Assembly (NCBI GenBank): GCA_016214075.1
Contig: JACRPI010000025.1
Span: forward strand, 1-60,428
Length of the DNA stretch: 60,428 nt
Reading direction: 5' to 3'
Source: Candidatus Woesearchaeota archaeon
GTDB lineage: Archaea > Nanobdellota > Nanobdellia > Woesearchaeales > DSVV01
In this document: piece by piece, positions 1 through 60,428 of the stretch
Numbering within the stretch: position 1 is the stretch's first letter
How the letters are laid out: each line of letters begins with the position of its first letter
Notes under the pieces: model-generated
Told to the model about the DNA's origin: nothing
Seen by the model: only the letters and a program-made list of their open reading frames with translations
Databases searched by the model: none
Program-made: the position numbers and the translations under genes

Positions 1-132
1 TTTGTTAATCCACATCAACAACTCAAAGGGAAAACTCCTGCTGAAGCAGCAGAGATTGATCTCCATTTAGGACAGAACAAGCTTCTTGATCTCATAAGAT
101 GGAGAGCAAAAATGCAGATGACGAAGAGATGA
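1..132 (+). CDS. Transposase, C-terminal fragment (cut by window edge)
   Basis: The reading frame is open from base 1 to a TGA at 130-132. It carries the segment NPHQQLKGKTPAEAAEIDL, the usual tail of archaeal DDE (integrase-core) transposases, where an N-x-x-R/Q-P-H region is followed by GKTPAEAAGI and an LG-x-NK motif. The match fades after about base 100, and the last residues overlap the M23 peptidase gene on the other strand. The insertion therefore probably ended inside, or recombined with, the 3' end of that gene. The rest of the element lies outside the window. The family is inferred from motif resemblance only. Confidence 0.65.
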   Translation, partial: FVNPHQQLKGKTPAEAAEIDLHLGQNKLLDLIRWRAKMQMTKR

Positions 133-1080
133 CAATGTCTTTCCTTTAGGTCCTTTTCCTCCTGAAAGCCCTATTTGTGTTCCCGCAGTAATTTGATCTC
201 CTTCTTTAACAAGTACTTCATCCATGTGAAGATATTGCGTTGTAATTCCATCACCATGCTCAATCGTGACACTGCCCCATCTTTTTGCATCTACATCTAT
301 AACGACACCATTCCCTACACTCAGGACAGGGGTGTGCCATGGCGCTTGAATATCTATACCTCCATGATGCTTTGATCCTTTCCCTCGCGCAACATGCTCT
401 CCACGATATCCAAAACAAGAATTCACGAGTCTCGTATCATATTGCGCAGGCCATATCCTAAACGGTGGTTTTGCAGTGTACTCTACTTGTGGTTCTGCTT
501 CAACACGCGTTGCTTCATCTTTTCCTTCAGTAATATTTTCTTTTATGAGTGTCGTTGTGCTTGCAACTCCTGTTAAACTGAGATGCAGACAACTTCCAAG
601 AAGAAGCATTCCCGCAGGAATTGTCGTGCTATATTTCATTTCTGGCATTTTTTCCGCTGCTGTTTTTCCTGTCATAAAAGAAGCAATGGATAATATTGTT
701 GTGTAGAGAAAAGGCGCATCAGTGACATAAGCAAGGAGAGTTCCTGCAGTTATCGCACTCGCTGTTCGCGCAACTTTTTGGACAATCTCTCGCTGATTTT
801 TTCTTATGTAACTTTCTCTTTGTATCTCGGGGATTAAGAAATCTACAGCTATGCTTGCATAGCGAAGCGCAAAGCTTCCCGCAAGTCCTGCTGCAACTGC
901 TTCTCCTTCTGAGAGCTCTGGAGATGGAGTCTCCATAATTTTAAGACCCAGCGCATACATTGTTGCAGGGATGAGTGATCCAATAGCATAATGCAGTGCT
1001 TCCCAATTTCCGTAGATGAGATCACTTAACTCTCGTCTCGGTTTTATTGTTCTTTCTTTTACTCTTTCTCTTCGTGCCAT
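67..1080 (-). CDS. Membrane-anchored M23 (LytM-type) metallopeptidase
   Basis: A protein of about 338 aa. Four hydrophobic segments lie between residues 30 and 195, followed by a LytM/M23 domain. The zinc ligands are visible as H239-x3-D243 (HHGGID) and H323 in HLHF, with catalytic H321. M23 enzymes cut peptide cross-links in bacterial peptidoglycan. The start at 1080 is chosen because the upstream GH18 gene stops at 1082, giving a 1-nt gap and probably one transcript. In-frame starts further upstream would sit inside that gene. The tail after HLHF does not look like M23 and runs antisense to the transposase remnant, so the last 10 or so residues were probably replaced by insertion. All catalytic residues remain. 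The domain is likely outside the cell. Confidence 0.85.
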   Translation of the reverse strand: MARRERVKERTIKPRRELSDLIYGNWEALHYAIGSLIPATMYALGLKIMETPSPELSEGEAVAAGLAGSFALRYASIAVDFLIPEIQRESYIRKNQREIVQKVARTASAITAGTLLAYVTDAPFLYTTILSIASFMTGKTAAEKMPEMKYSTTIPAGMLLLGSCLHLSLTGVASTTTLIKENITEGKDEATRVEAEPQVEYTAKPPFRIWPAQYDTRLVNSCFGYRGEHVARGKGSKHHGGIDIQAPWHTPVLSVGNGVVIDVDAKRWGSVTIEHGDGITTQYLHMDEVLVKEGDQITAGTQIGLSGGKGPKGKTLSSLRHLHFCSPSYEIKKLVLS

Positions 1081-1081
1081 T

Positions 1082-3370
1082 TTATTGTTGTTTCCATTCC
1101 CCAAACTCATTGTAAATTCCTTTTGTTCCGTGTGTCTGTCTCCAGCCACCCACATTATTCACATTAAGACTGTCAAGCAATTGTAATCTGTCTTCAAATA
1201 CTTTTGAATCCTGTAAATATGCTATTCTATCTGCTGTTTCTATACGCAGTTCTCCATTAGAATATCCTGTTGATTTTGCAGCATCAATATATCTTTGATT
1301 GTTTTGCGCGCTGATTGTTCCCACCGCACTTCCTCCTTTTGTCCAGACATAGCCGTAGAGTGGCATAAGGAAGACAATCTGATCATTCGCGACACGTGCT
1401 TGCGCGTATGCGATAATGTCATCTATTTTGTCATTTGGCAATACTGGAGACGCTCCTCGTCTTCCTTTGTGGAAATCGTATGCCATGATATGTAAGAAAT
1501 CCGCATATTTTGCAAGACCTTGGTAATCATAAAATCCGTGATGTTTGTAGCCCGCTTTTTCACTTCCTTCAAATCGTGGACTTACTGCAACCGCTATTTC
1601 ATATTGGCCTGCAGGAAGTTCTTGACGCAAGCGTCTCATAAACTCTACATACGCAGCGCTACTCTCACTTCCTAAGGAAATTGTTTCTAAATCCACTGCA
1701 ACGCCATCATATCCTTCTTCTTTGATAGCATCTGCGATACGATCCGCAGCAGTGGAAGGATTATCCAAAATTCTCTGTACTAATGATTTTGTGAACGCGC
1801 TGACCATGGGTAATACTTTCACCCCGCGTCCATGCGCTTTTGTAATAATTTTTTCTTCTAGTTTTTCAGAACAGCGTTGTTTGAGACGCAATGTGCTTCT
1901 GTTATCTGCAACAAATTCGTATGTGTGCGGATGCCAGTAATCAACGACAGCAAGCGTTTCTTCTTCCATCTTTCCGCTCCCCAGCGCTTGATTGTAAATG
2001 AAGACATGCTTTTTTCCGTCTCCTGAAACTCGAACAATAGGTGGTTGTGGCTCTTCTGTTTTTTCTCCTTCTTTTTCAAAGGTGAATACATACTCACTTC
2101 CTTTTTCACTTCCAAACCATTTGTGATCTACTTTTTTCTTTCCGTCCCATACTTCAACAAGAAATTTGAAGTCATCTCCAATTTTTTGCGCATCTTTTCC
2201 CGCAAGCGGATTAATCATCGCGGTGTCTGGAACAAACGCGTTTTCAATTCCCGCGTCGTATTCGAAAATTCCTGAGATAACTGCTATCCCATTTTGATCA
2301 ATAGAAAAATCATTTCTTTCGCCAAGATAGATTAAATCGTCGTAAAAATCCTTTGCTCCTGCTTTTGGAACAGTTGGTTGCGCTTCAGTTGAAGGAAGCA
2401 TGAAATATCGAATAGTAAGATCTTTTCCAACATGATTTCCCGCTTTTGTCGCTTTGACGTCAATGGTCATTAATTCGCCATCATTTATTTTTCCATCTTT
2501 GTTGTCGTCGTTTTTGCTTACTATAACCCGCATCCCAATATCATCGTGTCTTGTTGCGTCTGTGGGATATTCTGATGGAATCGCGTTATATCCACAATAA
2601 ACTCCATGCCCAACAATGTAGCTTAACCCTGCAAGCGCCATTGTAGTTCTTCCTGTTCTTTTGAAAAATGCTTTTTTCTCTGTGTCTTTCTTTTCTTTCC
2701 CTATGTTTTTTGTTTTGACTGTTGTTGCGTTCAGAATCTTTTTTCCGACATAATACCCTGCAGCAAGCGCGATTCCAAACATTCCATAATCAGAGAATCT
2801 GTGGATGGTGTCCATGACAAAATCTTTTGAAGCGATTTCTTCTTCGAGATGGAGAAGTTTATGCAATCCAACCGCTGCTCCAACCGCGCCTGTACTATAC
2901 ACTGCTGCAGCTGCTTTGTACCCAAATTTGTTATTGACGTATTCACCAATTCTTCCGACGAGTGTTCCATACGCTATCGCAGCTCCTGTTGCAACACCGC
3001 CTGTAACTAAAGAAGTATCAAGAATTTGCGCGCTTGCTTCTGCACCGCTAACTGTTGCTGCTGTTCCGATCACTACTGCGTCAAGTGTTTGTCTATGGTT
3101 TTTGTAGAATCGTGGAACTCGTTTTTCGCAGAGCTTTTTCTCTCGTGCTACGAGACTTTCGTATATGCTTGTTGTTGCATTATCTGCTTTTTCAGAGAGA
3201 TATTTACCAGCACGTTCAACTTTTGGTGTGGTATACGCTGCAGTCGCGTCTCTTGCGCGGACATATCCTGTTTTGATAGCGCTGCCTATCACTTTCCCTG
3301 CGCTGACAGCATGATCGCGCCAGGTTGGACTTTTCTTTGGAGTTTTCTCTATTCCTTTCTTCTTTACCAT
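1082..3370 (-). CDS. Membrane-anchored GH18 glycosidase (SleL/YaaH-like)
   Basis: A 762-aa protein. A basic cytoplasmic N-terminus is followed by several hydrophobic helices (about residues 100-250), a stretch with an EF-hand/dockerin-like DNKDGKINDGE loop, and a C-terminal GH18 barrel from about residue 460. The GH18 signature DGVAVDLE places the acid-base glutamate at about E562, and MAYDF supplies the conserved strand-6 motif. The fold resembles spore-cortex glucosaminidases of the SleL/YaaH group, which act on peptidoglycan; chitin is another possible substrate. The ATG at 3370 has an A+T box (3401-3409, minus strand) about 33 nt upstream, supporting a nearly leaderless message. The M23 gene follows 1 nt later. 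Confidence 0.85.
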   Translation of the reverse strand: MVKKKGIEKTPKKSPTWRDHAVSAGKVIGSAIKTGYVRARDATAAYTTPKVERAGKYLSEKADNATTSIYESLVAREKKLCEKRVPRFYKNHRQTLDAVVIGTAATVSGAEASAQILDTSLVTGGVATGAAIAYGTLVGRIGEYVNNKFGYKAAAAVYSTGAVGAAVGLHKLLHLEEEIASKDFVMDTIHRFSDYGMFGIALAAGYYVGKKILNATTVKTKNIGKEKKDTEKKAFFKRTGRTTMALAGLSYIVGHGVYCGYNAIPSEYPTDATRHDDIGMRVIVSKNDDNKDGKINDGELMTIDVKATKAGNHVGKDLTIRYFMLPSTEAQPTVPKAGAKDFYDDLIYLGERNDFSIDQNGIAVISGIFEYDAGIENAFVPDTAMINPLAGKDAQKIGDDFKFLVEVWDGKKKVDHKWFGSEKGSEYVFTFEKEGEKTEEPQPPIVRVSGDGKKHVFIYNQALGSGKMEEETLAVVDYWHPHTYEFVADNRSTLRLKQRCSEKLEEKIITKAHGRGVKVLPMVSAFTKSLVQRILDNPSTAADRIADAIKEEGYDGVAVDLETISLGSESSAAYVEFMRRLRQELPAGQYEIAVAVSPRFEGSEKAGYKHHGFYDYQGLAKYADFLHIMAYDFHKGRRGASPVLPNDKIDDIIAYAQARVANDQIVFLMPLYGYVWTKGGSAVGTISAQNNQRYIDAAKSTGYSNGELRIETADRIAYLQDSKVFEDRLQLLDSLNVNNVGGWRQTHGTKGIYNEFGEWKQQ

Positions 3371-3500
3371 TTCTTCACTAATTGGTAGCAAAAGAAGGCT
3401 GTTTATAAATGTTCCTATATTTTTGTCATGATTAAGTGGTTAATTAAGCGCATGTCATTCACTCTTTTTTTACACCATACTCATAAAAAATCTTATTACC

Positions 3501-3685
3501 GAATGGGTTTACTTCGAACCTTCGGTTCGTAGTATTACGAGCATAGCTCGAAATAATACCCCGTAGCTTGCTACGGATTCGATACCCATGAGCCTAATAA
3601 CACAAATTCCGTTAAGAAAATTCGCTAATACCCCGCAGCTTGCTGCGATTGGGATGCCCTGCGAGCGGTGCGTCTGTGTTATTAG
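3501..3685. repeat. Two nested inverted-repeat structures in a 375-nt gene-free gap
   Basis: Between rel and the GH18 gene there is no credible ORF but a series of perfect stems: 3515-3520 with 3524-3529, 3538-3542 with 3546-3550, 3561-3567 with 3570-3576 (CCGTAGC/GCTACGG), and 3634-3639 with 3642-3647. They sit inside two longer pairings, ATGGGT 3503-3508 with ACCCAT 3584-3589 and CTAATAACACA 3593-3603 with TGTGTTATTAG 3675-3685. This makes two multi-branched folds side by side. They could be a structured RNA, a termination zone after rel, or remnants of small mobile elements. Confidence 0.6.
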
Positions 3686-3744
3686 AAAATGTCTCCTCAC
3701 AAATATGAGAATGATCTCTGTTTAGGAACTTAAAACATATTGGA

Positions 3745-5733
3745 CTAATTTACCTTTACATCAAGAACCGCTTTGATCTTTTTGACCGCGTCTTTCAGAT
3801 CTTTTACCTGCGCTTCATCAGGAACATGGATTTTGAGTTTAATAATGACATTATCTTTCTTGTTTTTTGTGTGAATGGAAATGATATTCACTTTCATTGC
3901 TGCCATAAGATTCATGACATCCGCAAGAAGTCCTACTCTGTCATGCACGACAATCATCAATGTTGCCTGCTGCGTTGTTTCTTCCTGTGTCCAGGAAACA
4001 GGAAGCTCTTTTGTGACATCCAACGAGTAAATGTTCGCGCATTCTTTTTTATGAATGGTGATCTTTTTGTCTTTTGTCAGGAAACCTCGAATAGGATCAC
4101 TTCTATGCGGGCTGCAGCATTTGGAGATTTTTACTGGCGCAGGTTTTCCGTCTATGCGAATAAATTTGACAAGTGTCGCTTCGCTGACTTCTTCTTCCTG
4201 TCGCATTCCTTTCTTTGGATCATCTTCTGCTTCTATTTTCAGGCAGCTTCTAATTTTTGATTTTGCTTTTTGTGTTACTGCAAATTTCAACCATTGCCTT
4301 GAGGGTTCAGCGTTCTTTCTCGTTATAATTTCAATGACTTCTCCTGATTTGAGATGATAATCCAACGGCACAATTTTGCCATTCACTTTTGCCTGCGTAC
4401 AATGATCGCCGACATTACTGTGCACCATGTACGCGAAATCAACAGGCGTTGCTTTTACTGGAAGCGAAATAGGATCTCCTTTTGGCGTAAAGACAACAAT
4501 CTCATCTTCGAAAAGATCAACTTTGAGTGTTTCCACAAAATCCTTCGCGTCATCAGACTGCATTTTCCAGTCGAGAATCTGTTTGAGCCACGCGATTCGC
4601 TTGTCGAAAATCTTGTCTCGTTCGTTTCCTGTATATCGCCAGTGCGCAGCGATTCCTTCTTCTGCTTCATTCTGCATTTGCTCTGTGCGAATCTGCACTT
4701 CGATAATTTTTCCATAACTGCTCATCACTGTCGTGTGCAAACTTTGATACCCATTTGATTTTGGAACAGAAATATAATCTTTGAATCGATGTGGCACTGG
4801 TTTCCAGAGATCATGCACAACACCGAGCGCAGCGTAACAATCAGGAATAGATTTTGTGACGACTCGCAGCGCGATAAGGTCATACACCTGATCGAAATCC
4901 AGCTTTTTTTTCTGCATTTTTTTGTAGATGCTGTAGAAATATTTTGCTCGTCCGTAGACTTTTCCCGCTACTTGTTTTTCATTTAATGACTTTTGGACAT
5001 CTTCTATAATCTTCGCTGTCGCTTTTTCTCTTTCTGTTCGCTTTGAGGATATCTTTTGCGAGAGGAATTTGTATACTTCTGGGTTGAGATATCTCAGACA
5101 AAGATCTTCCAGTTCTCCTTTTAGTCTAAAAATGCCTAGCTTGTGTCCAATCGGCGCGTAGATATGCAGTGTCTCTTCAGAAATCCGTTTTTGTTTTTCG
5201 GGACTGCACCATTTTAATGTACGCATATTGTGAAGGCGGTCCGCAAGTTTGATAAGAATGACGCGAATATCTTTTGTTGTCGCGAGCAATACTTTTCGAA
5301 TATTTTCCGCAGTATAATCTTCTTTTGAATCAAAATGAATCGCGCCAATTTTTGTGACTCCTTCGACGAGCATCGCGATTTCGTCTCCAAAATCTTCTTT
5401 GATCTGGGAGAGTTTGACGGGGGTGTCTTCCACAACATCGTGCAGGAGCGCCGCGCAAATTGTCGCTGAATCCGCTTTAAGTGAGATGAGAATTCGCGCG
5501 ACTTCTATCGGATGCGTGATGTATGGTTCTCCGTTTTCTCGTGTCTGTATTTTATGCGCGTCAAAAGCCACTGTAAGCGCTTTTTTGATCAGGCGAAGCT
5601 GCGCTTTATTATTGTACTCCTTTATTTTTTCCGCAAGCTCTTCGTAGATTGTTTCTTGGTCAAGCGTTTTCGCTGTTGCTTTTGTTTCTTCAGCATCTCC
5701 ACTTCCGAGAGCGATATCTATACTTGTTGCCAT
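3745..5733 (-). CDS. rel: Bifunctional (p)ppGpp synthetase/hydrolase, long RelA/SpoT type
   Basis: A 662-aa long-form RSH enzyme, which makes and degrades the alarmone (p)ppGpp. The order is complete. The HD hydrolase domain has H74 and H98-D99-x2-E102-D103. The synthetase contains RFKDYISVPKSNGYQSLH and EVQIRT. A TGS domain follows at about 400-460. A zinc-finger segment (KCCSPHRSDP ... KKECANI) and a C-terminal ACT domain follow. The RFKD loop is the form found in bifunctional Rel/SpoT rather than synthetase-only RelA. RSH proteins are nearly universal in bacteria and rare in archaea, so this is probably a transferred gene. It is divergent from the Ig-like protein gene and has a separate promoter zone. 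Confidence 0.92.
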   Translation of the reverse strand: MATSIDIALGSGDAEETKATAKTLDQETIYEELAEKIKEYNNKAQLRLIKKALTVAFDAHKIQTRENGEPYITHPIEVARILISLKADSATICAALLHDVVEDTPVKLSQIKEDFGDEIAMLVEGVTKIGAIHFDSKEDYTAENIRKVLLATTKDIRVILIKLADRLHNMRTLKWCSPEKQKRISEETLHIYAPIGHKLGIFRLKGELEDLCLRYLNPEVYKFLSQKISSKRTEREKATAKIIEDVQKSLNEKQVAGKVYGRAKYFYSIYKKMQKKKLDFDQVYDLIALRVVTKSIPDCYAALGVVHDLWKPVPHRFKDYISVPKSNGYQSLHTTVMSSYGKIIEVQIRTEQMQNEAEEGIAAHWRYTGNERDKIFDKRIAWLKQILDWKMQSDDAKDFVETLKVDLFEDEIVVFTPKGDPISLPVKATPVDFAYMVHSNVGDHCTQAKVNGKIVPLDYHLKSGEVIEIITRKNAEPSRQWLKFAVTQKAKSKIRSCLKIEAEDDPKKGMRQEEEVSEATLVKFIRIDGKPAPVKISKCCSPHRSDPIRGFLTKDKKITIHKKECANIYSLDVTKELPVSWTQEETTQQATLMIVVHDRVGLLADVMNLMAAMKVNIISIHTKNKKDNVIIKLKIHVPDEAQVKDLKDAVKKIKAVLDVKVN

Positions 5734-5784
5734 AGAGTCTTTTGTAAATCTATTGAGATATATAATATTTTAGTTTTCCAAAGA

Positions 5785-5792
5785 TTTATATA
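5785..5792 (+). promoter_or_regulatory. TATA box of the Ig-like/secreted hydrolase operon
   Basis: TTTATATA lies about 40 nt before the GTG at 5831, and a purine-rich GAGAGGGG stretch is placed as a ribosome site about 5 nt before the start. Together they support the GTG start and a short leader. This promoter lies in the 97-nt divergent gap shared with rel. Confidence 0.5.
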
Positions 5793-5830
5793 GAATAACC
5801 CTCAAAATTACACTCAAAGAGAGGGGATTT

Positions 5831-7129
5831 GTGGTGCGAAACAAAGGACAGGTAACTATTTTCATAATTTTAGGTGTTCTTATTGTACTTTTTGTCGCTC
5901 TTTTTTTTATTTTCACTTCTTTTGAAACGCAAAAACCAGAGACTCAAACACAAGCTGTTGCCTACGCGCTCATCGCGCAGTGTGTTGAAGACGTTGCGAT
6001 TCACGGTATTCCTTTTCTTGCGGCTCGAGGAGGATATTATGAAATTCCTTCTGGCTATCTTGTTTATACTGAAGAATATAATCCTTATTTTACCACTATT
6101 TCTTATTATTACAATGAAGGAGCAATGACTGCTTTGTCTGAAGATGAACTCGCTACACAATTTGAGCTTTTCCTTCTCTCAAGGACAAAAGAATGTTATA
6201 ATTCAACATCTGAATCATCGGATTATTCTTTTAAAGAATTAGGAACAGAAGAAGTGACTGTCTCTTTCACTGATTATGCTGTTGAAATTCTTTATGCTTC
6301 TCACGTCGCTCTTGTTGACGCGACTTCTACAACTTCGATTACTCCTATTGAAATCGCTCTTCCTAGTTCGTATTACACTGCATACACCACTGCATTGGCA
6401 ATTGCTGAAGAACAATCAAGCAAAGGAAATATTTTTTGCATGACCTGTTTGACGAAGTATAAGCAGGGCGCAATTGAAAATGTTTTGACTGAAGAAGTCT
6501 CATCTGATAATTTTTACGCAATTGTCTACACAATCAACTTTACAGAAGAGTCCACTGACGCAACCGCGCTCTTTTCTTTTGCTGGAAAATATGGTCTTGC
6601 TTCTGAAACAGAAAATTTGCGACTTCTTCCTATCGCGGATCAAACTATAGTTATCGGCTATCCTTATGAATACGATGTTTCTGCAACAAAAACAGCTGTT
6701 ACCTTTTCAGACAACAGTGATCTTTTTGACATAAATCCTTCATCTGGAATTATTTCTTTTTATCCTGATGAAGAAAGTGTTGGAACACACCTTATTGAAA
6801 TTACCGCAACAGATTCTGATGGAAATTTTGATTCCACTTCTTTCTATCTTGAAATTAATCCTGTTGTTTCTTTTATTGATCTTTCTTATATCGGCACGCT
6901 TGCGGCTTCAGTGGGGCAATCTTTTAATTATACTGTCTCTCTTACAGAGGAAACAAATAAAACAGTGTATTATTTTGATGATACTACGCTTTTTGATGTT
7001 GGACTTACTTCTGGAAAAGTATTATTTACTCCTGTTACAGGTCAAGAAGGAACATACGATATTACCTTCACTGCGACAACACAAGAGGGGAGCACTGCTG
7101 AAGAATTAATGACGCTGGTGATTTATTAA
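5831..7129 (+). CDS. Membrane-anchored surface protein with cadherin/Ig-like domains
   Basis: A 432-aa protein starting at GTG 5831. An N-terminal KGQVTIFIILGVLIVL hydrophobic stretch resembles the short anchors seen on many Woesearchaeota-type surface proteins. The middle (about 40-260) has no family I recognise. Two tandem beta-sandwich repeats follow at about 265-350 and 350-432, each with the cadherin-like pattern of an F/LFDI/V segment followed by SG-x-I/V-x-F-x-P. Such domains normally mediate adhesion or calcium-dependent contacts. The next gene, the 1229-aa secreted modular hydrolase, begins 1 nt after this stop, so the two are almost certainly co-expressed and may work together at the surface. 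Confidence 0.7.
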   Translation: MVRNKGQVTIFIILGVLIVLFVALFFIFTSFETQKPETQTQAVAYALIAQCVEDVAIHGIPFLAARGGYYEIPSGYLVYTEEYNPYFTTISYYYNEGAMTALSEDELATQFELFLLSRTKECYNSTSESSDYSFKELGTEEVTVSFTDYAVEILYASHVALVDATSTTSITPIEIALPSSYYTAYTTALAIAEEQSSKGNIFCMTCLTKYKQGAIENVLTEEVSSDNFYAIVYTINFTEESTDATALFSFAGKYGLASETENLRLLPIADQTIVIGYPYEYDVSATKTAVTFSDNSDLFDINPSSGIISFYPDEESVGTHLIEITATDSDGNFDSTSFYLEINPVVSFIDLSYIGTLAASVGQSFNYTVSLTEETNKTVYYFDDTTLFDVGLTSGKVLFTPVTGQEGTYDITFTATTQEGSTAEELMTLVIY

Positions 7130-7130
7130 C

Positions 7131-10100
7131 ATGAAACCAAAAATCAATATGACTCCAACCGTTTGTTTTTTCTTCTTTGTTCTTACTTTGCTCGTCTCTC
7201 TTCCCTCTCTTTATGCGGGTGGAAGCACAACACTTTGTACAGATCCCGCAGAGTATGAAGATTGTTTTCAGGACAATCCTTCCATGCAAAATCTTCTCCT
7301 TGTTTCTGATCCAAGCCCTGATGATTTTGAGAAGCTCTTGAACGCGGATAGAACACAGGCTGCTTTGTATTTAACTCGTCGATATGATCCTGAATTTGCA
7401 GCAACGTATGTCGCTTCAACGGATTTTACCACCGCAGACGCAACTTCCGCGCTTGTCGCGGAGCGATTTTTTAGTGAAGATTCTGATAACGTGAATGAAT
7501 ACAAAGGAAAATTTGCTGATTATATGTATCGTCAAGGTGTTGAGATTGGGATTTCCGGGGACATTGAAAAATACAACGTTGATGGAACACTTGTTGGAGA
7601 AAATGGCGCAATCAATCTCAAACAGTTCGCGTCTGATTATGCGTTTGAGGTCAATAGTGACGGAGAGATTGTTCTCATCCCTCGTCACTATCCACAGGAT
7701 TGGTTGATTGAATTTGAAGGAACAATTACACAAAATAGCAACGGCGATATTGCAATGAAGTCTGGCTCTTTCAATGGTTTAGATGTAGAAGACGCGTCAA
7801 GCATTTGGGTTGGGAAAGAAGGAAATATTATTGTTGATGCTGGAGAGTTTGGCGCGCTTGATTTTCAGGGAAGAGGACATGTTATTTATGACCCAGATGA
7901 TCAATCGTACCAACTGAAAGATGCTGTCCTTACTGATTATCCGGATTATAAACTTACAGGAACAATTACTGTTGATGTAGGTTATGTGTATGATGATTTT
8001 TATGTTCCCGCAGGAAAAAAACTTGAAGTGCATCCGAACACAAAAAATGCTGAGAAAGAAGCGCTCAATGAGCAGGCGTATGTCATTAAAGCAAATGGGG
8101 GAAAACAAGTTCTTCTCAACTTGAATACAGAACATTGGTGGGAAAATCCAACTGATTATGTTGTTGAGTGGCTTGAGGCTGCTGAAGATATTGTTTCAGG
8201 GACACCTGAAGACAAAGTAACTATTGATCCAAATAAAGTTGTTATCGCAGAAGCCGCTCCTGCGCTTGAAGGCTACGATCATTCGTATCGTCTTGAAATT
8301 GACGCAGGCGCGCAATACGCATTGCAAAGCGAATCTGGTCCTGAAAATGATAACTTTCTCCCTATTCCCGAAGATGGATCTTATGGAAAAGGAGACTACC
8401 CAAAGAAAGGGACAGCAGATTATGAAGCAATTCAAGTTATTCAAGGAATTGTGGGTACTACTCCTGATGGAAAATATGGTTCTGGGACAAAAGCAGCTGT
8501 TGTTTCCTGGCAAAATAGTTACAATCAGCAAAATAAATTAAATCCAGGTGATCCAGGATATCTTGCTCCTGATGGAAGCTGGGAACAAGAAGATACAACC
8601 GCGTATTTCCAGATGACGTATAATCACGATCAAAATCCTCCTACCCTTGTCTTTGATATGGGAACTCCAGAGAGTGGTGGAGTTGCTGTTGTTCACTTTG
8701 AAGAAACTGGCCTTGATGTGACGACAGCAGGCGATATGAATTTAGAGATAGAAGGACAGAGATTGCAGATTCAAGATGGTGAAGCGGATCGGCAGCTTGC
8801 AGCAATCATAGAATCTGAATTGAGTGTCCCTGTCACGCTTTCGAGTCACGCTCCTTGCGATACTTCTGTAGATATCACTGGTCAAGCAATTGGAAATTCT
8901 TACTGTGAAATATTCTCGACACGCATTGATGATGGAACATACAGTGTCAATGACGCAGTCGTGAGCGGTACTGTTCGCGCATCCTGTCCGCTTTCTCTTG
9001 GTAATATTAATCCTTCAAAATCACAGTGCGCAACGTATGTTACAGATTACGCAAAAGTTGAAGGAGGAATGTACACGACGTATGGCTCTCAGCAGGATAA
9101 TTACGCTGTCTATCTTGGGGAATATGGCAGTAGTTGGCAAATGTCTCATAACATCCAAGGTCATGAAGGAACTTCTCTCTACTGGAAAGAGTCTGCTGGT
9201 GACATGGCATTTAAAGATTCACGACTCGCAGAACAGGTTGACTATAATTATGATAATTTTGAAGAAGGCGATGTTGTTTTCTTTTATTACACGAAAAGTA
9301 CTTTTTTGAAAGAAGCATATGAAGAAGGCACTGATGGAAGACAGGCAACGCACAGCGCTCGTGTTGTTGGAAAAGAATCTGAACAATATACAGTTTCTAC
9401 AGCAGGGACTGATCCTGTTGCGTATCTTCAAAAACAACTTGGAGTGAGCAGTGATTTCCTCAGCGGTTATCCTGTATGGATAAATGGCCAGAGAGCACTT
9501 TACAGCAATGGCGCGTATTATTCTTACGACTCTACGAAAGGTGTTGTGGGAAGTCCAATTGTTCTGAATCAAGGAGATCAGGTTGTTGTTGAAAAAACCA
9601 TGATTGCGCAGATGTATCATGAAGGATCACGAGATAAACAGCCGTTTAAAGTTGTTGATTATGGTACATTCCTTTCAGACAACGCAAAAACTATGTCGCT
9701 TTATGAACATGTTCGACCGGACACGGAAAGAACAGAAGAAGCAGCAACCCGTTTTGCAGGGACAACTGCTGTTGCTGTGGATAATGACGAAGATATTGCT
9801 GACGCGCTTCGCGCTTCAGGAGTTTCTGAAGAAGATCTTCCAGCAATGGTTGAACTGACGAGAGAAATCAATAACGTTCCAAGCAATTGGAAAGGGAATG
9901 GAGATGTTCTTATGCTTCCGAGCGCGAACACCCTTCCTCCAGAAGATACTGTTGTCGTGAATATGGAAAAACGTTGGCTCCCTACTGCAGGAGATATTTA
10001 TGGCGTTGTTGAAGCATCTTCCAAAGAACGGGTACGTGAATATGGTATTCCTCCTGATGATGTAGATGATCTTACTGAAGCAACGATTGCGCTTGGAATG

Positions 10101-10820
10101 ATCGAATCGTATTGGGGTGAAACACAAAGCACTGGTTCTCAAGTGAAGATGGCTGCTGAATCATTCATTGCAGAAACAGGTATAGGAACAAGTCCGACTC
10201 GTTCTTACGGTGTTCTCCAAACACAAGATCAACTTGCGGAAAAAAATGCACAAGAATTAGGTGTTGATGATTACACAGGTCCTGAAGAACTTGTTACTCT
10301 TGAAGGAGGAGTTAAACATGGTCAGCGAAATATTGCGCAGGCGTGGGATAGATACGCTGTTGACCATGATGGAAGAGATCTTCCTTATGAAGAAAAATTA
10401 GGTATGGTCGCTGCCGCGCATCACATGGGTGAAGACGCTCCAATGGTCGCGGCTGTTCAGTCACAACTTTTAGATTTAGGCTATGGTGAAAAAGATAATG
10501 TTGATGGCTTTTATGGGGAAGATACAATTACTACACTTCAGGAATATGCAAAGGATAAAGGAGTCGCATTTGACGCAGAAGCCGCGCGAAATGATTGCGC
10601 GTATCTTCACGCGGATTTAAGCAGTTGCACTTCTGGCGCTCTTGAGAATTCCGCAGTTTATACTTTTGCACGCCAAGACTGGAAACAGACAAAAGGTGAA
10701 GGCAAAGTAGACCCTCCTTACGCGATTGTTCCTCCAAACAATGGATATGTACAAACAGCAATTAAATATTGCGGGCAGATTACCGCTGTTCAAGGAAGAT
10801 GCACTTATTCGGTTAGTTAA
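7131..10820 (+). CDS. Giant secreted modular wall-lytic protein (PG-binding, CHAP/NlpC-like, lysozyme-like)
   Basis: A 1229-aa protein with a Sec signal peptide (residues 1-29, ending LYAGG). A long beta-rich region fills residues 60-420. Two peptidoglycan-binding-1-like units sit at about 430-465 (TPDGKYGSGTKAAVVSWQ) and 1105-1150 (VDGFYGEDTITTLQEYA). Between them is a Cys-His hydrolase-like segment: C633 in SQCATYV, GDVVFFY at about 714, and H741 in THSARVVG, the layout of CHAP/NlpC-P60 amidases. A lysozyme/SLT-like unit has E992 in ALGMIESYWGE and SYGVLQ at 1025-1030. I infer peptidoglycan hydrolysis outside the cell. The overall architecture is unfamiliar to me. It is translated right after the Ig-like membrane protein. 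Confidence 0.7.
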   Translation: MKPKINMTPTVCFFFFVLTLLVSLPSLYAGGSTTLCTDPAEYEDCFQDNPSMQNLLLVSDPSPDDFEKLLNADRTQAALYLTRRYDPEFAATYVASTDFTTADATSALVAERFFSEDSDNVNEYKGKFADYMYRQGVEIGISGDIEKYNVDGTLVGENGAINLKQFASDYAFEVNSDGEIVLIPRHYPQDWLIEFEGTITQNSNGDIAMKSGSFNGLDVEDASSIWVGKEGNIIVDAGEFGALDFQGRGHVIYDPDDQSYQLKDAVLTDYPDYKLTGTITVDVGYVYDDFYVPAGKKLEVHPNTKNAEKEALNEQAYVIKANGGKQVLLNLNTEHWWENPTDYVVEWLEAAEDIVSGTPEDKVTIDPNKVVIAEAAPALEGYDHSYRLEIDAGAQYALQSESGPENDNFLPIPEDGSYGKGDYPKKGTADYEAIQVIQGIVGTTPDGKYGSGTKAAVVSWQNSYNQQNKLNPGDPGYLAPDGSWEQEDTTAYFQMTYNHDQNPPTLVFDMGTPESGGVAVVHFEETGLDVTTAGDMNLEIEGQRLQIQDGEADRQLAAIIESELSVPVTLSSHAPCDTSVDITGQAIGNSYCEIFSTRIDDGTYSVNDAVVSGTVRASCPLSLGNINPSKSQCATYVTDYAKVEGGMYTTYGSQQDNYAVYLGEYGSSWQMSHNIQGHEGTSLYWKESAGDMAFKDSRLAEQVDYNYDNFEEGDVVFFYYTKSTFLKEAYEEGTDGRQATHSARVVGKESEQYTVSTAGTDPVAYLQKQLGVSSDFLSGYPVWINGQRALYSNGAYYSYDSTKGVVGSPIVLNQGDQVVVEKTMIAQMYHEGSRDKQPFKVVDYGTFLSDNAKTMSLYEHVRPDTERTEEAATRFAGTTAVAVDNDEDIADALRASGVSEEDLPAMVELTREINNVPSNWKGNGDVLMLPSANTLPPEDTVVVNMEKRWLPTAGDIYGVVEASSKERVREYGIPPDDVDDLTEATIALGMIESYWGETQSTGSQVKMAAESFIAETGIGTSPTRSYGVLQTQDQLAEKNAQELGVDDYTGPEELVTLEGGVKHGQRNIAQAWDRYAVDHDGRDLPYEEKLGMVAAAHHMGEDAPMVAAVQSQLLDLGYGEKDNVDGFYGEDTITTLQEYAKDKGVAFDAEAARNDCAYLHADLSSCTSGALENSAVYTFARQDWKQTKGEGKVDPPYAIVPPNNGYVQTAIKYCGQITAVQGRCTYSVS

Positions 10821-10836
10821 TGAGTTCATTATAGAA

Positions 10837-11580
10837 TTACAATTTTAAAAGCCAGCAATCTTCCCATCGAAGTCGACCATTTCCTTCTACAAGCGCGTCA
10901 TAAATTTGAAGAACTTCTGGCGCGTAATATTCTGTTTGTTTATTCACAGGAATGTGCGTTGTTCCGCGAAGCACTGCTGTTCTTCCTGCGTTATACGCGG
11001 CAGCAGCAAAAATCTTTGCGTAATACGGATTCTCTGTTTCACTCAGAAAAAATTGATGTTCTCCTGCTAATTGTCGTACTCCTTCATTGATATTCCACGC
11101 AGGATCAAAGCGTGTATCTTTCTCTTTTAGTCCTTCTTCGATAAGTATTTCAAGATCTTGTTTATAAAGCGCCGCCCATTCTTCTGTCGTCTTTCCATTA
11201 TATGTTCTTTCCTTGGACGCTCTCGCTTTTACATAAAAAATATAATTTTCTGTCGTATACGATCCTGACCTTGGCATGAGCTGCATTGGACCAACAGCTC
11301 CTGTTGATGAAATCAAATCTTCCTGAAAATGGGATTCTTTGATCAGAATTGCTTTCGCGAATCGCCAGTCAAGATTATATTCCTTACTTGCATCCTCGAG
11401 AAAAACATCATACTGGCTTTCATTTGGCGCTCGTGGGCAATATGTTGTCATGGTTTCTATTTTGTCAACAACATCTTGAACGGTTGGCACTTGCTTTCTT
11501 TGGTGAGCAATATATGCTGTACTCGCAGAGATTCCTACTAGAAAAGAAAGGAACCCCCATACCATGCTTCTTTTTACCAT
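10837..11580 (-). CDS. Membrane-anchored lytic transglycosylase (SLT/GH23-like)
   Basis: A 247-aa protein with one N-terminal helix (residues 5-25) followed by an external SLT domain. All family marks are present: catalytic E82 in ILIKESHF, GAVGPMQLMP at 94-103, and AYNAG at 195-199. Enzymes of this family cleave the MurNAc-GlcNAc bond of peptidoglycan without hydrolysis. A minus-strand TATA box at 11603-11612 lies about 28 nt before the ATG at 11580, giving a leaderless message. It is convergent with the secreted hydrolase gene (16 nt between ends) and divergent from the kinase gene. The family is overwhelmingly bacterial. Confidence 0.88.
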   Translation of the reverse strand: MVKRSMVWGFLSFLVGISASTAYIAHQRKQVPTVQDVVDKIETMTTYCPRAPNESQYDVFLEDASKEYNLDWRFAKAILIKESHFQEDLISSTGAVGPMQLMPRSGSYTTENYIFYVKARASKERTYNGKTTEEWAALYKQDLEILIEEGLKEKDTRFDPAWNINEGVRQLAGEHQFFLSETENPYYAKIFAAAAYNAGRTAVLRGTTHIPVNKQTEYYAPEVLQIYDALVEGNGRLRWEDCWLLKL

Positions 11581-11612: not shown

Positions 11613-11691
11613 TTACTCCTTATTAGGTACATCAAAAAAGAAGTTCTTTTCCATGAGCTTTATAAAACGAATTTCTCTCCTTCTTGTGATT

Positions 11692-13635
11692 ATGGGTTTA
11701 GAAGAAGAGATACAAATTCCTGACTACAAAATCGTTCAGGAAGCAGGAAGAGGAAATTTTGGCATTGTCTATAAGGCGCGAGAAATTTCGTCTGGACGAG
11801 ATAGGGCAATAAAGATTCTTGATCGCGTTGAAGGGGGCAGAGGAGACGCGGCGTATGCGCTTTTTCGTTCAGAAGGTTTAGAGGAAAACGAATCGCTCGC
11901 AGACGCATTTCAGCATGAAAATCTTGTTCGCTTTTACAGGCAGGGTGTTGTTCTTGAGGGAGATTTTACTGGTCAAAAATTCATTGTTCTGGAATGGGTG
12001 CAAGGAACGACACTGGAGCATGCGTCAGACTTTTCTCCACGAGAAATAGATGGGGTTATCAAACAAATTTGTCATGGCGTTCAGCATATGCATGAGCGTG
12101 GGTATCTTCATAATGATATTCGTGCACCAAACATAATGGTTACTCATTCTCAAACAAAAAAGTCTTCTCTTCTTGCAAAACTGGGTGATTATACACTTGT
12201 GACTCCTTGTGATGAACAGGGCATTGCCTCTGCTGCAGCAAATATTTCTTCACGGACAATTTCGGCTCCGGAATCTATACAGCGTGGGGAATTATCTGCA
12301 AGAACTGATATTTGGGGACTCGGAATTCTGATGTACCAACTGTGGACTGGAGAACATCCATTTCCTCATTCAAGTAAAGATGTGCTTGAAGAAATGGTAC
12401 GTACTCCTGCATCTTATACTGGTTTGGAAATTCGCATTCAACGAAATCCTCAAATTCCGCAAAAATATAAAGCTATTATTCAAAGGTGTCTTTCATATAA
12501 TCCTGATCAGCGTTACCAGTCAGTCACCGCGCTTTTACATGAACTGGAACCCCCAAAAACACGCTTGAGTGTTGGTTCTGTAGTTGGAGGTATTTTTCTC
12601 GCCGCGCTCGGATGTTTGGGCATAAGTACAGGGGGTCTTCTTTATTTTCAAAAACCAGATCCTATTGTTGAAACAAAAACAGAAGTGCAATATATTCCTA
12701 CTGTTTTTTCAGATAATCGAAAAGTCAAGCGCGATCCGCGAATTCAGCAAGGAGTTGATCCAGAGGATGTTTGCAATCATCCTGAAAAATATCATATGGA
12801 TCGAGATCGATATAAAGATCCGTTGGCATATCGTTTTTGTTTAGAATTTGGTGAAGCAAAAAAACTTCTTGACCAAGCGGAATTTGTCGCGGCAGCAAAA
12901 AAACTTGAAGCATTGCAAAAAGACAATCCCTTGCGTTATGAACCCCCCTCTGCGCTTCTTGAGGCATATTATGAGTTAGGCTTAGTTTCTGAGGCTGCTG
13001 AAATAAGAAAATTAGTTGTAACCAAATTCGGAGAGTATAATCCTATGGAATTGGCTCTGTACAGTCAGAAAATAGATCTTTATATTTTAGATGGTCCTAC
13101 TACTGTTGATTTTTTGTCTCGAGATATTTGTACTGTTGGCGTTGTTCAGAAAAACTATCCAGAATGTCCGGAACTTGTTTTAGTTCGTTCGCTTTCTTCA
13201 TCAGATGAAAAAGAGAAGAGATACGCCGCGCTTGTTCGTACGTATTCTCGCTCTTTTTTAGTGCATCGAGAGTATGCTCGCTTTTTGTTTGAGACAAATG
13301 ATTCAGATAAAATCCCTCTCGCGCTTCAGCAGTATGAAGCTGCTGCAAAGCTTGCAAAAAACAGGTATGCCTTTTTTGCTGAAATCACGCACCAGTTTGA
13401 AAAGCGTCGTGATTTTGCGCACGCTTTTGTGTATCAGTACAGAGCAGAAGAAGCATTTCAAGAAGGTTATTCATCAAGTCTTTGGAGTAGTAGAGAATCA
13501 GACGCGCTCCTGGTTAAAATGGGTGGCGTTGGTAAAAATACTTCTTCTTTTACATCAAAAGAAGAAGCGTATCATGTGCTTTCAGAAAAATGCACTGCTG
13601 ATGCGGATTTTGGTTTTGTTCCGTGTTCTTTTTAA
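11692..13635 (+). CDS. Receptor-type Hanks Ser/Thr protein kinase with TM helix and external helical domain
   Basis: A 647-aa protein. The kinase domain (about 10-285) has a GRGNFGIVY loop, AIKIL lysine, HND at about 140-142 in place of HRD, GDY at about 165 in place of DFG, and SAPES for APE. A glycine-rich transmembrane helix follows at about 300-320, then about 300 residues of helical, TPR-like sequence, probably outside the cell. This is the layout of bacterial PknB-like sensors. The ATG at 11692 is preferred over 11653 because TTTATAAA at 11659-11666 sits about 30 nt before it and would lie inside the longer version. It is divergent from the lytic transglycosylase gene. Confidence 0.85.
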   Translation: MGLEEEIQIPDYKIVQEAGRGNFGIVYKAREISSGRDRAIKILDRVEGGRGDAAYALFRSEGLEENESLADAFQHENLVRFYRQGVVLEGDFTGQKFIVLEWVQGTTLEHASDFSPREIDGVIKQICHGVQHMHERGYLHNDIRAPNIMVTHSQTKKSSLLAKLGDYTLVTPCDEQGIASAAANISSRTISAPESIQRGELSARTDIWGLGILMYQLWTGEHPFPHSSKDVLEEMVRTPASYTGLEIRIQRNPQIPQKYKAIIQRCLSYNPDQRYQSVTALLHELEPPKTRLSVGSVVGGIFLAALGCLGISTGGLLYFQKPDPIVETKTEVQYIPTVFSDNRKVKRDPRIQQGVDPEDVCNHPEKYHMDRDRYKDPLAYRFCLEFGEAKKLLDQAEFVAAAKKLEALQKDNPLRYEPPSALLEAYYELGLVSEAAEIRKLVVTKFGEYNPMELALYSQKIDLYILDGPTTVDFLSRDICTVGVVQKNYPECPELVLVRSLSSSDEKEKRYAALVRTYSRSFLVHREYARFLFETNDSDKIPLALQQYEAAAKLAKNRYAFFAEITHQFEKRRDFAHAFVYQYRAEEAFQEGYSSSLWSSRESDALLVKMGGVGKNTSSFTSKEEAYHVLSEKCTADADFGFVPCSF

Positions 13636-60220: not shown

Positions 60221-60353
60221 AGCTTTGTGAATTAACTGCTTGTTTATAAATGTTTTTAATTTGTTTGTGGTTACGAAAACTACAAACAGGACATTGTCTA
60301 TTTAGCGTCATCTATATATATTAGTTAATTCTTAGGTTGTTTTGGTGATTTTT

Positions 60354-60428
60354 ATGGACATTCAATGTTTGAACTGTAAATCCAGTGATATTGCTAAAAA
60401 AGGTTATAGAAAAAATAAGTTAGGAAAA
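60354..60428 (+). CDS. Transposase, N-terminal fragment (cut by window edge)
   Basis: ATG 60354 opens 25 codons to the window end: CLNCKSSDIAKKGYRKNKLGK. This is the zinc-ribbon start of archaeal IS transposases, where C-x2-C is followed by KKG-x-R-x-N. A TATATATA box at about 60312 and an inverted repeat TGTTTGT/ACAAACA near 60262-60289 may mark its left end. The fragment at base 1 could come from the same family. Confidence 0.6.
   Translation, partial: MDIQCLNCKSSDIAKKGYRKNKLGK

Follow-up and report, generated by a model that had tools for sequence, protein, structure and literature searches.

The most interesting part of the window analysed here (the whole 60,428 nt stretch of DNA, which constitutes a complete contig, C25, of genome G000) is not the four wall-lytic enzymes as such, but an order-wide two-gene module. 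On sequence evidence, the first gene of this module encodes a pilin-like protein bearing a class III signal, and the second a large exported protein (hereafter the giant) whose C-terminal tips are swapped between relatives. Of the wall-lytic arsenal described in the first-pass annotation, the GH18, SLT and giant genes are intact and lie on an archaeal contig, whilst the M23 gene is broken. Wall-cutting enzymes occur here together with a recurring pilin-like/giant pair, which suggests that the cell may attack bacteria or hold on to them by such a device. We lean, with modest confidence, towards a set of surface and secreted enzymes, belonging to a tiny groundwater-type archaeon of the Woesearchaeota, which would act on bacterial peptidoglycan in contact-dependent attachment, breaching or feeding. 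A broader formulation is offered tentatively: a polymorphic surface device of the Woesearchaeales, with a pilin-like base, a stalk with exchangeable tips and, often, a convergent exported enzyme, in which the tips and partners of some lineages, that of the window among them, might act on bacterial murein as a contact weapon or anchor. Wall-active enzymes in a cell unable to make murein, along with the recurring module, provide a concrete and testable link from uncultured archaea to bacteria.

The relevant features of the window are as follows.

1–139, no strand: end of an insertion sequence (IS), terminal GACATTGTC; nine identical genome copies of 1–112
67–1155, minus: 5′ part of the IS-cut M23-SLT gene (PF01551, E = 1.3e-19)
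140–149, no strand: probable target-site duplication CTAAAGGAAA, also found at C35:139–148 beside the opposite IS end
1082–3391, minus: GH18 protein with YdhD, YaaH and SleL as its closest solved structures (Pfam, PDB match, synteny in G001:C98)
3745–5733, minus: full-length RelA/SpoT (HD, synthetase, TGS, ACT), a conserved neighbour of the GH18/M23-SLT genes
5831–7129, plus: opening gene of the module, a pilin-like protein with a class III signal and repeats of Ig-like type (KGQVTIFIILG signal, alignment; He_PIG)
7131–10820, plus: giant (1229 aa), with signal sequence, beta-rich N-terminal stalk, two PG-binding-like stretches and variable tip (homologs, Pfam)
8376–8700, plus: first PG_binding_1-like stretch of the giant, aa 416–523 (PF01471, E = 0.0026; weak, below cut-off)
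8943–9416, plus: C633/H741 domain of the giant, CHAP/NlpC-like by motif only (alignment of four homologs)
9816–10499, plus: lysozyme/GH23-like region of the giant with E992 (alignment; relatives match SLT/DUF1615)
10440–10568, plus: C-terminal PG_binding_1 of the giant, aa 1104–1146 (31.7 bits, cut-off 23)
10837–11580, minus: SLT lytic transglycosylase with E82, convergent to the giant (PF01464, E = 1.4e-15; same place in G002)
60290–60428, no strand: opposite end of the same kind of IS (139/139 match to the second IS end)

An ORF check placed the reading frames named in the first-pass annotation where it had put them. Rfam and tRNA scans of the window returned no match.

The pilin-like/giant module

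Pilin-like proteins that align to the window gene were found in 80 of the 81 genomes searched. The neighbourhoods of the best stand-alone matches were inspected, with 51 of these in loci outside the query build and 47 possessing a neighbour. A module was scored when the next gene encoded at least 600 aa, shared the strand and was no more than 150 bases away; this applies to 31 of the 47 cases (38 at 400 aa). For the other genes of these loci the figure is 8 of 290 (Fisher p = 9e-25, a value that is optimistic given the related genomes and overlapping windows). A hydrophobic N-terminus is present in 36 of the 38 downstream proteins of at least 400 aa, compared with 169 of 424 ORFs in general. 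The gene convergent to the giant encodes a wall-active protein in a number of genomes, namely an SLT (window, G002), a YkuD L,D-transpeptidase (G005, G006, G010, G113), an Amidase_3 (G088) or a C92 peptidase (G240), with other convergent neighbours being unrelated or without assigned function. A general tie of L,D-transpeptidases to the module was considered and rejected, as most of their genes are not near it: in the 99-genome set, 16 further YkuD loci lie elsewhere.

Amongst 54 module giants, Pfam identifies PG_binding_1 in seven, making it the commonest family, followed by LysM in three, SLT in two, DUF1615 in two and Peptidase_C25 in one. Murein-type parts are thus a minority, most module giants having no wall-active domain that can be recognised, and the role of the module as such may lie elsewhere than in murein. 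A full-length homolog of the window giant (42 %) occurs only in G002, with the G001 homolog having no C633/H741 region; the N-terminal part, beta-rich by sequence, forms a family present in 13 of 288 relatives' genomes. Beyond this common part, the C-termini carry C633/H741-type and lysozyme-like regions in the window, G002, G091 and G088; the tip in G001 is lysozyme-like with no clear Cys-His region, and a second copy of the giant in G270 ends in an HExxH-type region. By eye, a His-Cys caspase-like stretch can be seen in the giant of G237. The exchangeable tip types that we propose are lysozyme-like, Cys-His, and protease- or C25-like.

The tip of the window giant

The first-pass annotation read the giant as a modular hydrolase with PG-binding repeats and two catalytic sites, a description borne out for the C-terminal PG_binding_1 domain and in part for E992, which is kept in four of five homologs. 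The lysozyme-like domain of the window giant itself has no profile match, and although SYGVLQ is present, the AYNAG motif has degenerated to AHHMG. Relatives of this GH23-like region match DUF1615 (2.4e-5) and SLT (8e-4), and a PDB search using their alignment retrieves Slt-type transglycosylases at an E-value of about 0.45. A LysM-like stretch was noted by eye ahead of the region. For the second proposed site, C633 and H741 are conserved in all four aligned homologs, but the region yields no convincing Pfam, PHROG or PDB profile match, with the PDB profile search using its alignment returning nothing. AlphaFold2 models of the C-terminal half (single sequence, pLDDT 34) and of the C633/H741 region (two sequences, pLDDT 33) were unusable. 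The putative lysozyme-like domain is argued for through relatives, and the candidate CHAP site through conservation; the evidence in the window protein for the giant as a catalytic enzyme is thin.

These observations bear upon the possibility that the giant serves adhesion rather than lysis, being a murein-binding stalk in which enzyme-like folds have decayed to binding, such that only the SLT and GH18 proteins would cut. The degenerate AHHMG, the loss or shift of the catalytic Glu in the G002 giant and the prevalence of PG_binding_1 amongst module giants are in keeping with this, whilst the retention of E992 in most homologs, and of C633/H741 in every one aligned, speaks against decay. On balance we regard pure adhesion as rather unlikely.

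Enzymes beside the module

The stand-alone SLT gene bears out its earlier assignment, as PF01464 scores 57 bits and the GH23/SLT motifs (catalytic Glu, GxMQLMP and AYNAG) are all present, as E82, GPMQLMP and an AYNAG at residue 195. Its closest PDB match is of the MltC type (5e-7). In the equivalent SLT of G002 the catalytic Glu is shifted by one residue or lost.

The GH18 assignment is likewise sustained (PF00704, E = 5e-18; 66 bits, cut-off 29.6), with the barrel and the catalytic Glu of DxxxxDxE found within the motif DGVAVDLE. The residue previously given as E562 corresponds to E569 in the TTG-started ORF, for which the true start may be M8 (3370). The closest structure in the PDB is 3cz8 (YdhD; 4e-20); YaaH and SleL (4s3k, 4s3j) are further matches, and the catalytic Glu falls in register in the alignment. 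Family knowledge of these spore cortex-type enzymes, the nearest solved relatives, favours a predicted murein glycosidase rather than a chitinase. Unlike SleL/YaaH and YdhD, the archaeal protein has its own long N-terminal region, and Pfam finds no LysM in the protein.

The M23 gene has a different fate. Counting the window itself, the genome holds nine copies of window positions 1–112 at 100 % identity; in the other eight copies fetched, the unique flanks all begin at exactly the same base, GACATTGTC. The genuine M23 coding part spans about 140–1080, with a start at M26, and the ORF crosses the IS boundary at about residue 339, so that its last ~22 codons, including the HxH motif read as HLHF, are IS DNA. 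Accordingly, of the complete M23 motif reported earlier, H239/D243 are genuine (H264/D268 of the ORF), but H321/H323 come from the IS end beyond CTAAAGGAAA, and the LytM-type zinc-ligand set (H…D, HxH and closing strand) is incomplete in the window ORF. By blastp, this ORF is 50 % identical, up to the break, to a 606-aa M23-SLT protein of G001, and the fused protein is intact in both sister genomes, G001 and G002. Contig C35 starts with the opposite IS end, and next to it stand the ten bases CTAAAGGAAA which also border the IS in the window; the ORF of C35 matches the remainder of the fused M23-SLT of G001, G002 and a paralog on C11, and the SLT domain of the cut gene and the true HLHF lie at the start of C35. 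From homology, terminal repeats and the repeated ten bases we infer that C25 and C35 hold the two halves of one gene. By these sequence criteria, the window M23 gene is broken by an IS and is not a working enzyme in G000; other M23 genes lie on C11 and C13. More generally, an IS end at a contig edge can supply an apparent catalytic motif.

Target of the enzymes

The G000 genome, 98 % complete, contains no Glycos_transf_4 protein (MraY/WecA) and no FtsW/RodA, and its sole Mur-ligase-like protein is FolC. Due to this, use on a wall of its own is unlikely, and the murein of another organism is the most natural target; we predict that bacterial murein is the likely substrate. FtsW/RodA is absent from all 99 order relatives, of which 46 possess M23 and 62 SLT. 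The premise of the first-pass annotation that archaea do not make murein holds for G000 in that MraY and FtsW/RodA are missing, but is not absolute, as one relative of the order (G015) has MurA, B, C, E, F, MraY and MurG. Its further suggestion of use on bacterial neighbours agrees with bacterial murein as the target, although killing, feeding and attachment are indistinguishable by sequence.

An alternative by analogy with transglycosylases of bacterial pili and conjugation is that the enzymes might remodel the cell's own envelope (S-layer glycan or a GlcNAc polymer) for the passage of surface appendages. It draws on the repeated fusion of M23, SLT and YkuD to pilin-type N-termini in relatives, or their presence within pilin-gene clusters, as well as on the Mur genes of G015. 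Against it stand the missing MraY and FtsW/RodA of G000, along with the general observation that murein is the substrate of those M23, SLT and L,D-transpeptidase enzymes that have been characterised, and we consider it improbable.

More doubtful still is a scavenging role, in which wall debris from dead bacteria would supply amino sugars and peptides and no living cell would be targeted. A GH18 of the SleL/YdhD type together with an SLT would release small muropeptides, and scavenging lifestyles have been proposed for these archaea (PMC9723730), but the enzymes look cell-bound rather than freely secreted. The earlier description of all four proteins as exported or membrane-anchored is clear for the giant, and also for the pilin-like protein; for GH18, M23 and SLT it relies on weakly hydrophobic N-termini, with no segment of the three passing a hydrophobic-segment cut of 1.6 Kyte-Doolittle.

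In the contact-dependent action on bacteria that we favour, the pilin-like protein would leave the cell by the class III route of archaeal pilins, and plausibly serves as the surface anchor or display partner of the giant. The stalk of the giant would hold out a tip for binding, and perhaps for cutting, the murein of any bacterium in contact with it, whilst the SLT and GH18 proteins would thin the glycan locally, the outcome being attachment to, breaching of, or feeding on the bacterium.

Archaeal origin of the contig

The genome to which the window belongs comprises 46 contigs (1.62 Mb; 1 % contaminated), and C25 itself encodes aIF2-alpha, LonB with an archaeal lid domain and S3Ae. The nearest relatives of the giant are found in Candidatus Woesearchaeota archaeon nzgw46 (JAHFMP010000043.1) and NC_groundwater_1851 (JACRKI010000180.1), with match positions that are those of G002:C30 and G001:C153, respectively. 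The gene order in G002 is pilin-like, giant and convergent SLT, and that in G001 pilin-like, giant and kinase. Similarly, the order Rel-GH18-M23/SLT recurs in G001, where the GH18 gene is syntenic on C98, and Rel-M23/SLT in G002; in the latter an elongation-factor-type GTPase gene adjoins M23-SLT/Rel and a MetG-like gene adjoins the giant. By gene content, the organism is an archaeon of the Woesearchaeota type. Bacterial contamination, which had been named as grounds for abandoning the original proposal, is hardly credible and was rejected: the enzyme families are typically bacterial and the full-length giant is found in just one other genome, but archaeal genes share the contig with the wall genes and two independent Woesearchaeota MAGs retain the same gene order, keeping wall genes beside archaeal ones.

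Relation to described systems

The window is best read as pointing to attack on bacteria or attachment to them, a proposal that has already been made in print for Woesearchaeota. Castelle et al. (2021; PMC8204110) propose that Pace- and Woesearchaeota use large proteins resembling murein transglycosylases on bacterial hosts, and Vigneron et al. (2022; PMC9723730) link GH23 to predation on bacteria in Woesearchaeota ('vampiristic'), adding a pore-forming toxin. In 2025, peptidoglycan hydrolases of a haloarchaeon were shown to kill bacteria, and the same study names Nanoarchaeota as a group rich in such enzymes (Strock et al., PMC12352652). A literature search combining Woesearchaeota, pilin and peptidoglycan found no paper in the collection searched, and the pilin-like/giant module with exchangeable tips, as drawn from sequence, looks like a new variation on the published theme.

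Compared by description only, the window giant resembles fam00969 (PMC8204110) in being a large exported Woesearchaeon protein with a lysozyme-like part and the same proposed role. It differs in the weakness of that part, and the available text on the family mentions neither a pilin-like partner nor variable tips nor a convergent enzyme. The Woesearchaeota GH23 proteins of Vigneron et al. (PMC9723730) are similarly read as serving predation on bacteria, with the accessible part of that account describing no GH18, M23-SLT or pilin-like module. As in Strock et al. (PMC12352652), the window enzymes are archaeal and come from M23, PG_binding_1 and other families. The examples tested there were haloarchaeon M23-PG_binding_1 proteins, whereas in the window PG-binding and enzyme families are mostly on separate proteins that look cell-bound. 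In terms of the modular archaeal hydrolases of that study, with PG-binding and catalytic domains on one protein, the giant combines PG_binding_1 with a putative catalytic domain.

Genes flanking the wall-enzyme genes

The window also encodes a kinase, and in the relative G001 a protein similar to this kinase directly follows the giant exported protein (locus L049, 6603-8213).

11653-13635, Ser/Thr kinase, PknB-like, single membrane segment

A full-length RelA/SpoT of bacterial type, here in an archaeon, is encoded at 3745-5733 (TIGR00691 match, 692 bits); it adjoins the wall-enzyme genes, an arrangement that is kept in G001 and a second relative, G002.

Pilin-type N-termini and murein precursor genes

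In several loci, a pilin-type (class III-like) N-terminus precedes fused M23 and/or SLT domains, and these fusion proteins have in common a 'G.KQ...GE..L.YID' stretch.

L054 9093-10880 (contig C11 of the window's own genome, G000), M23 and/or SLT fusion
L061 1171-3864 (G002, contig C5), M23 and/or SLT fusion
L009, L010, L016, L023, L032 and L043, further such fusions

The C11 and G002 fusion genes sit within a cluster of pilin-like genes, and a cluster of the same kind in the relative G082 (L171) contains a YkuD protein. On G000 contig C5, a gene whose product contains a histone-deacetylase domain and has a Tat-like start (L131, 4775-5875) is convergent to another pilin-like/large-protein pair.

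The order relative G015 encodes MurA, MurB, MurG, MraY, MurC, MurE and MurF, the MurF ORF also carrying an M23 domain at its C-terminal end.

L057 (G015, contig C2) 2417-12196, Mur genes
L058 (G015, contig C7) 9031-10473, Mur genes

Together these genes make up most of a pathway for murein precursors, and the genome that carries them was binned among Woesearchaeales. A search of that genome found FtsW/RodA to be absent.

Contig edges

The assembly is broken by a high-copy insertion sequence, also present on G000 contigs C5, C29, C31, C32, C34, C36, C39 and C41.

1-139 and 60290-60428, insertion sequence at the window ends

Its protein has a zinc-ribbon-like N-terminus and the C-terminus PHQQLKGKTPAEAA.
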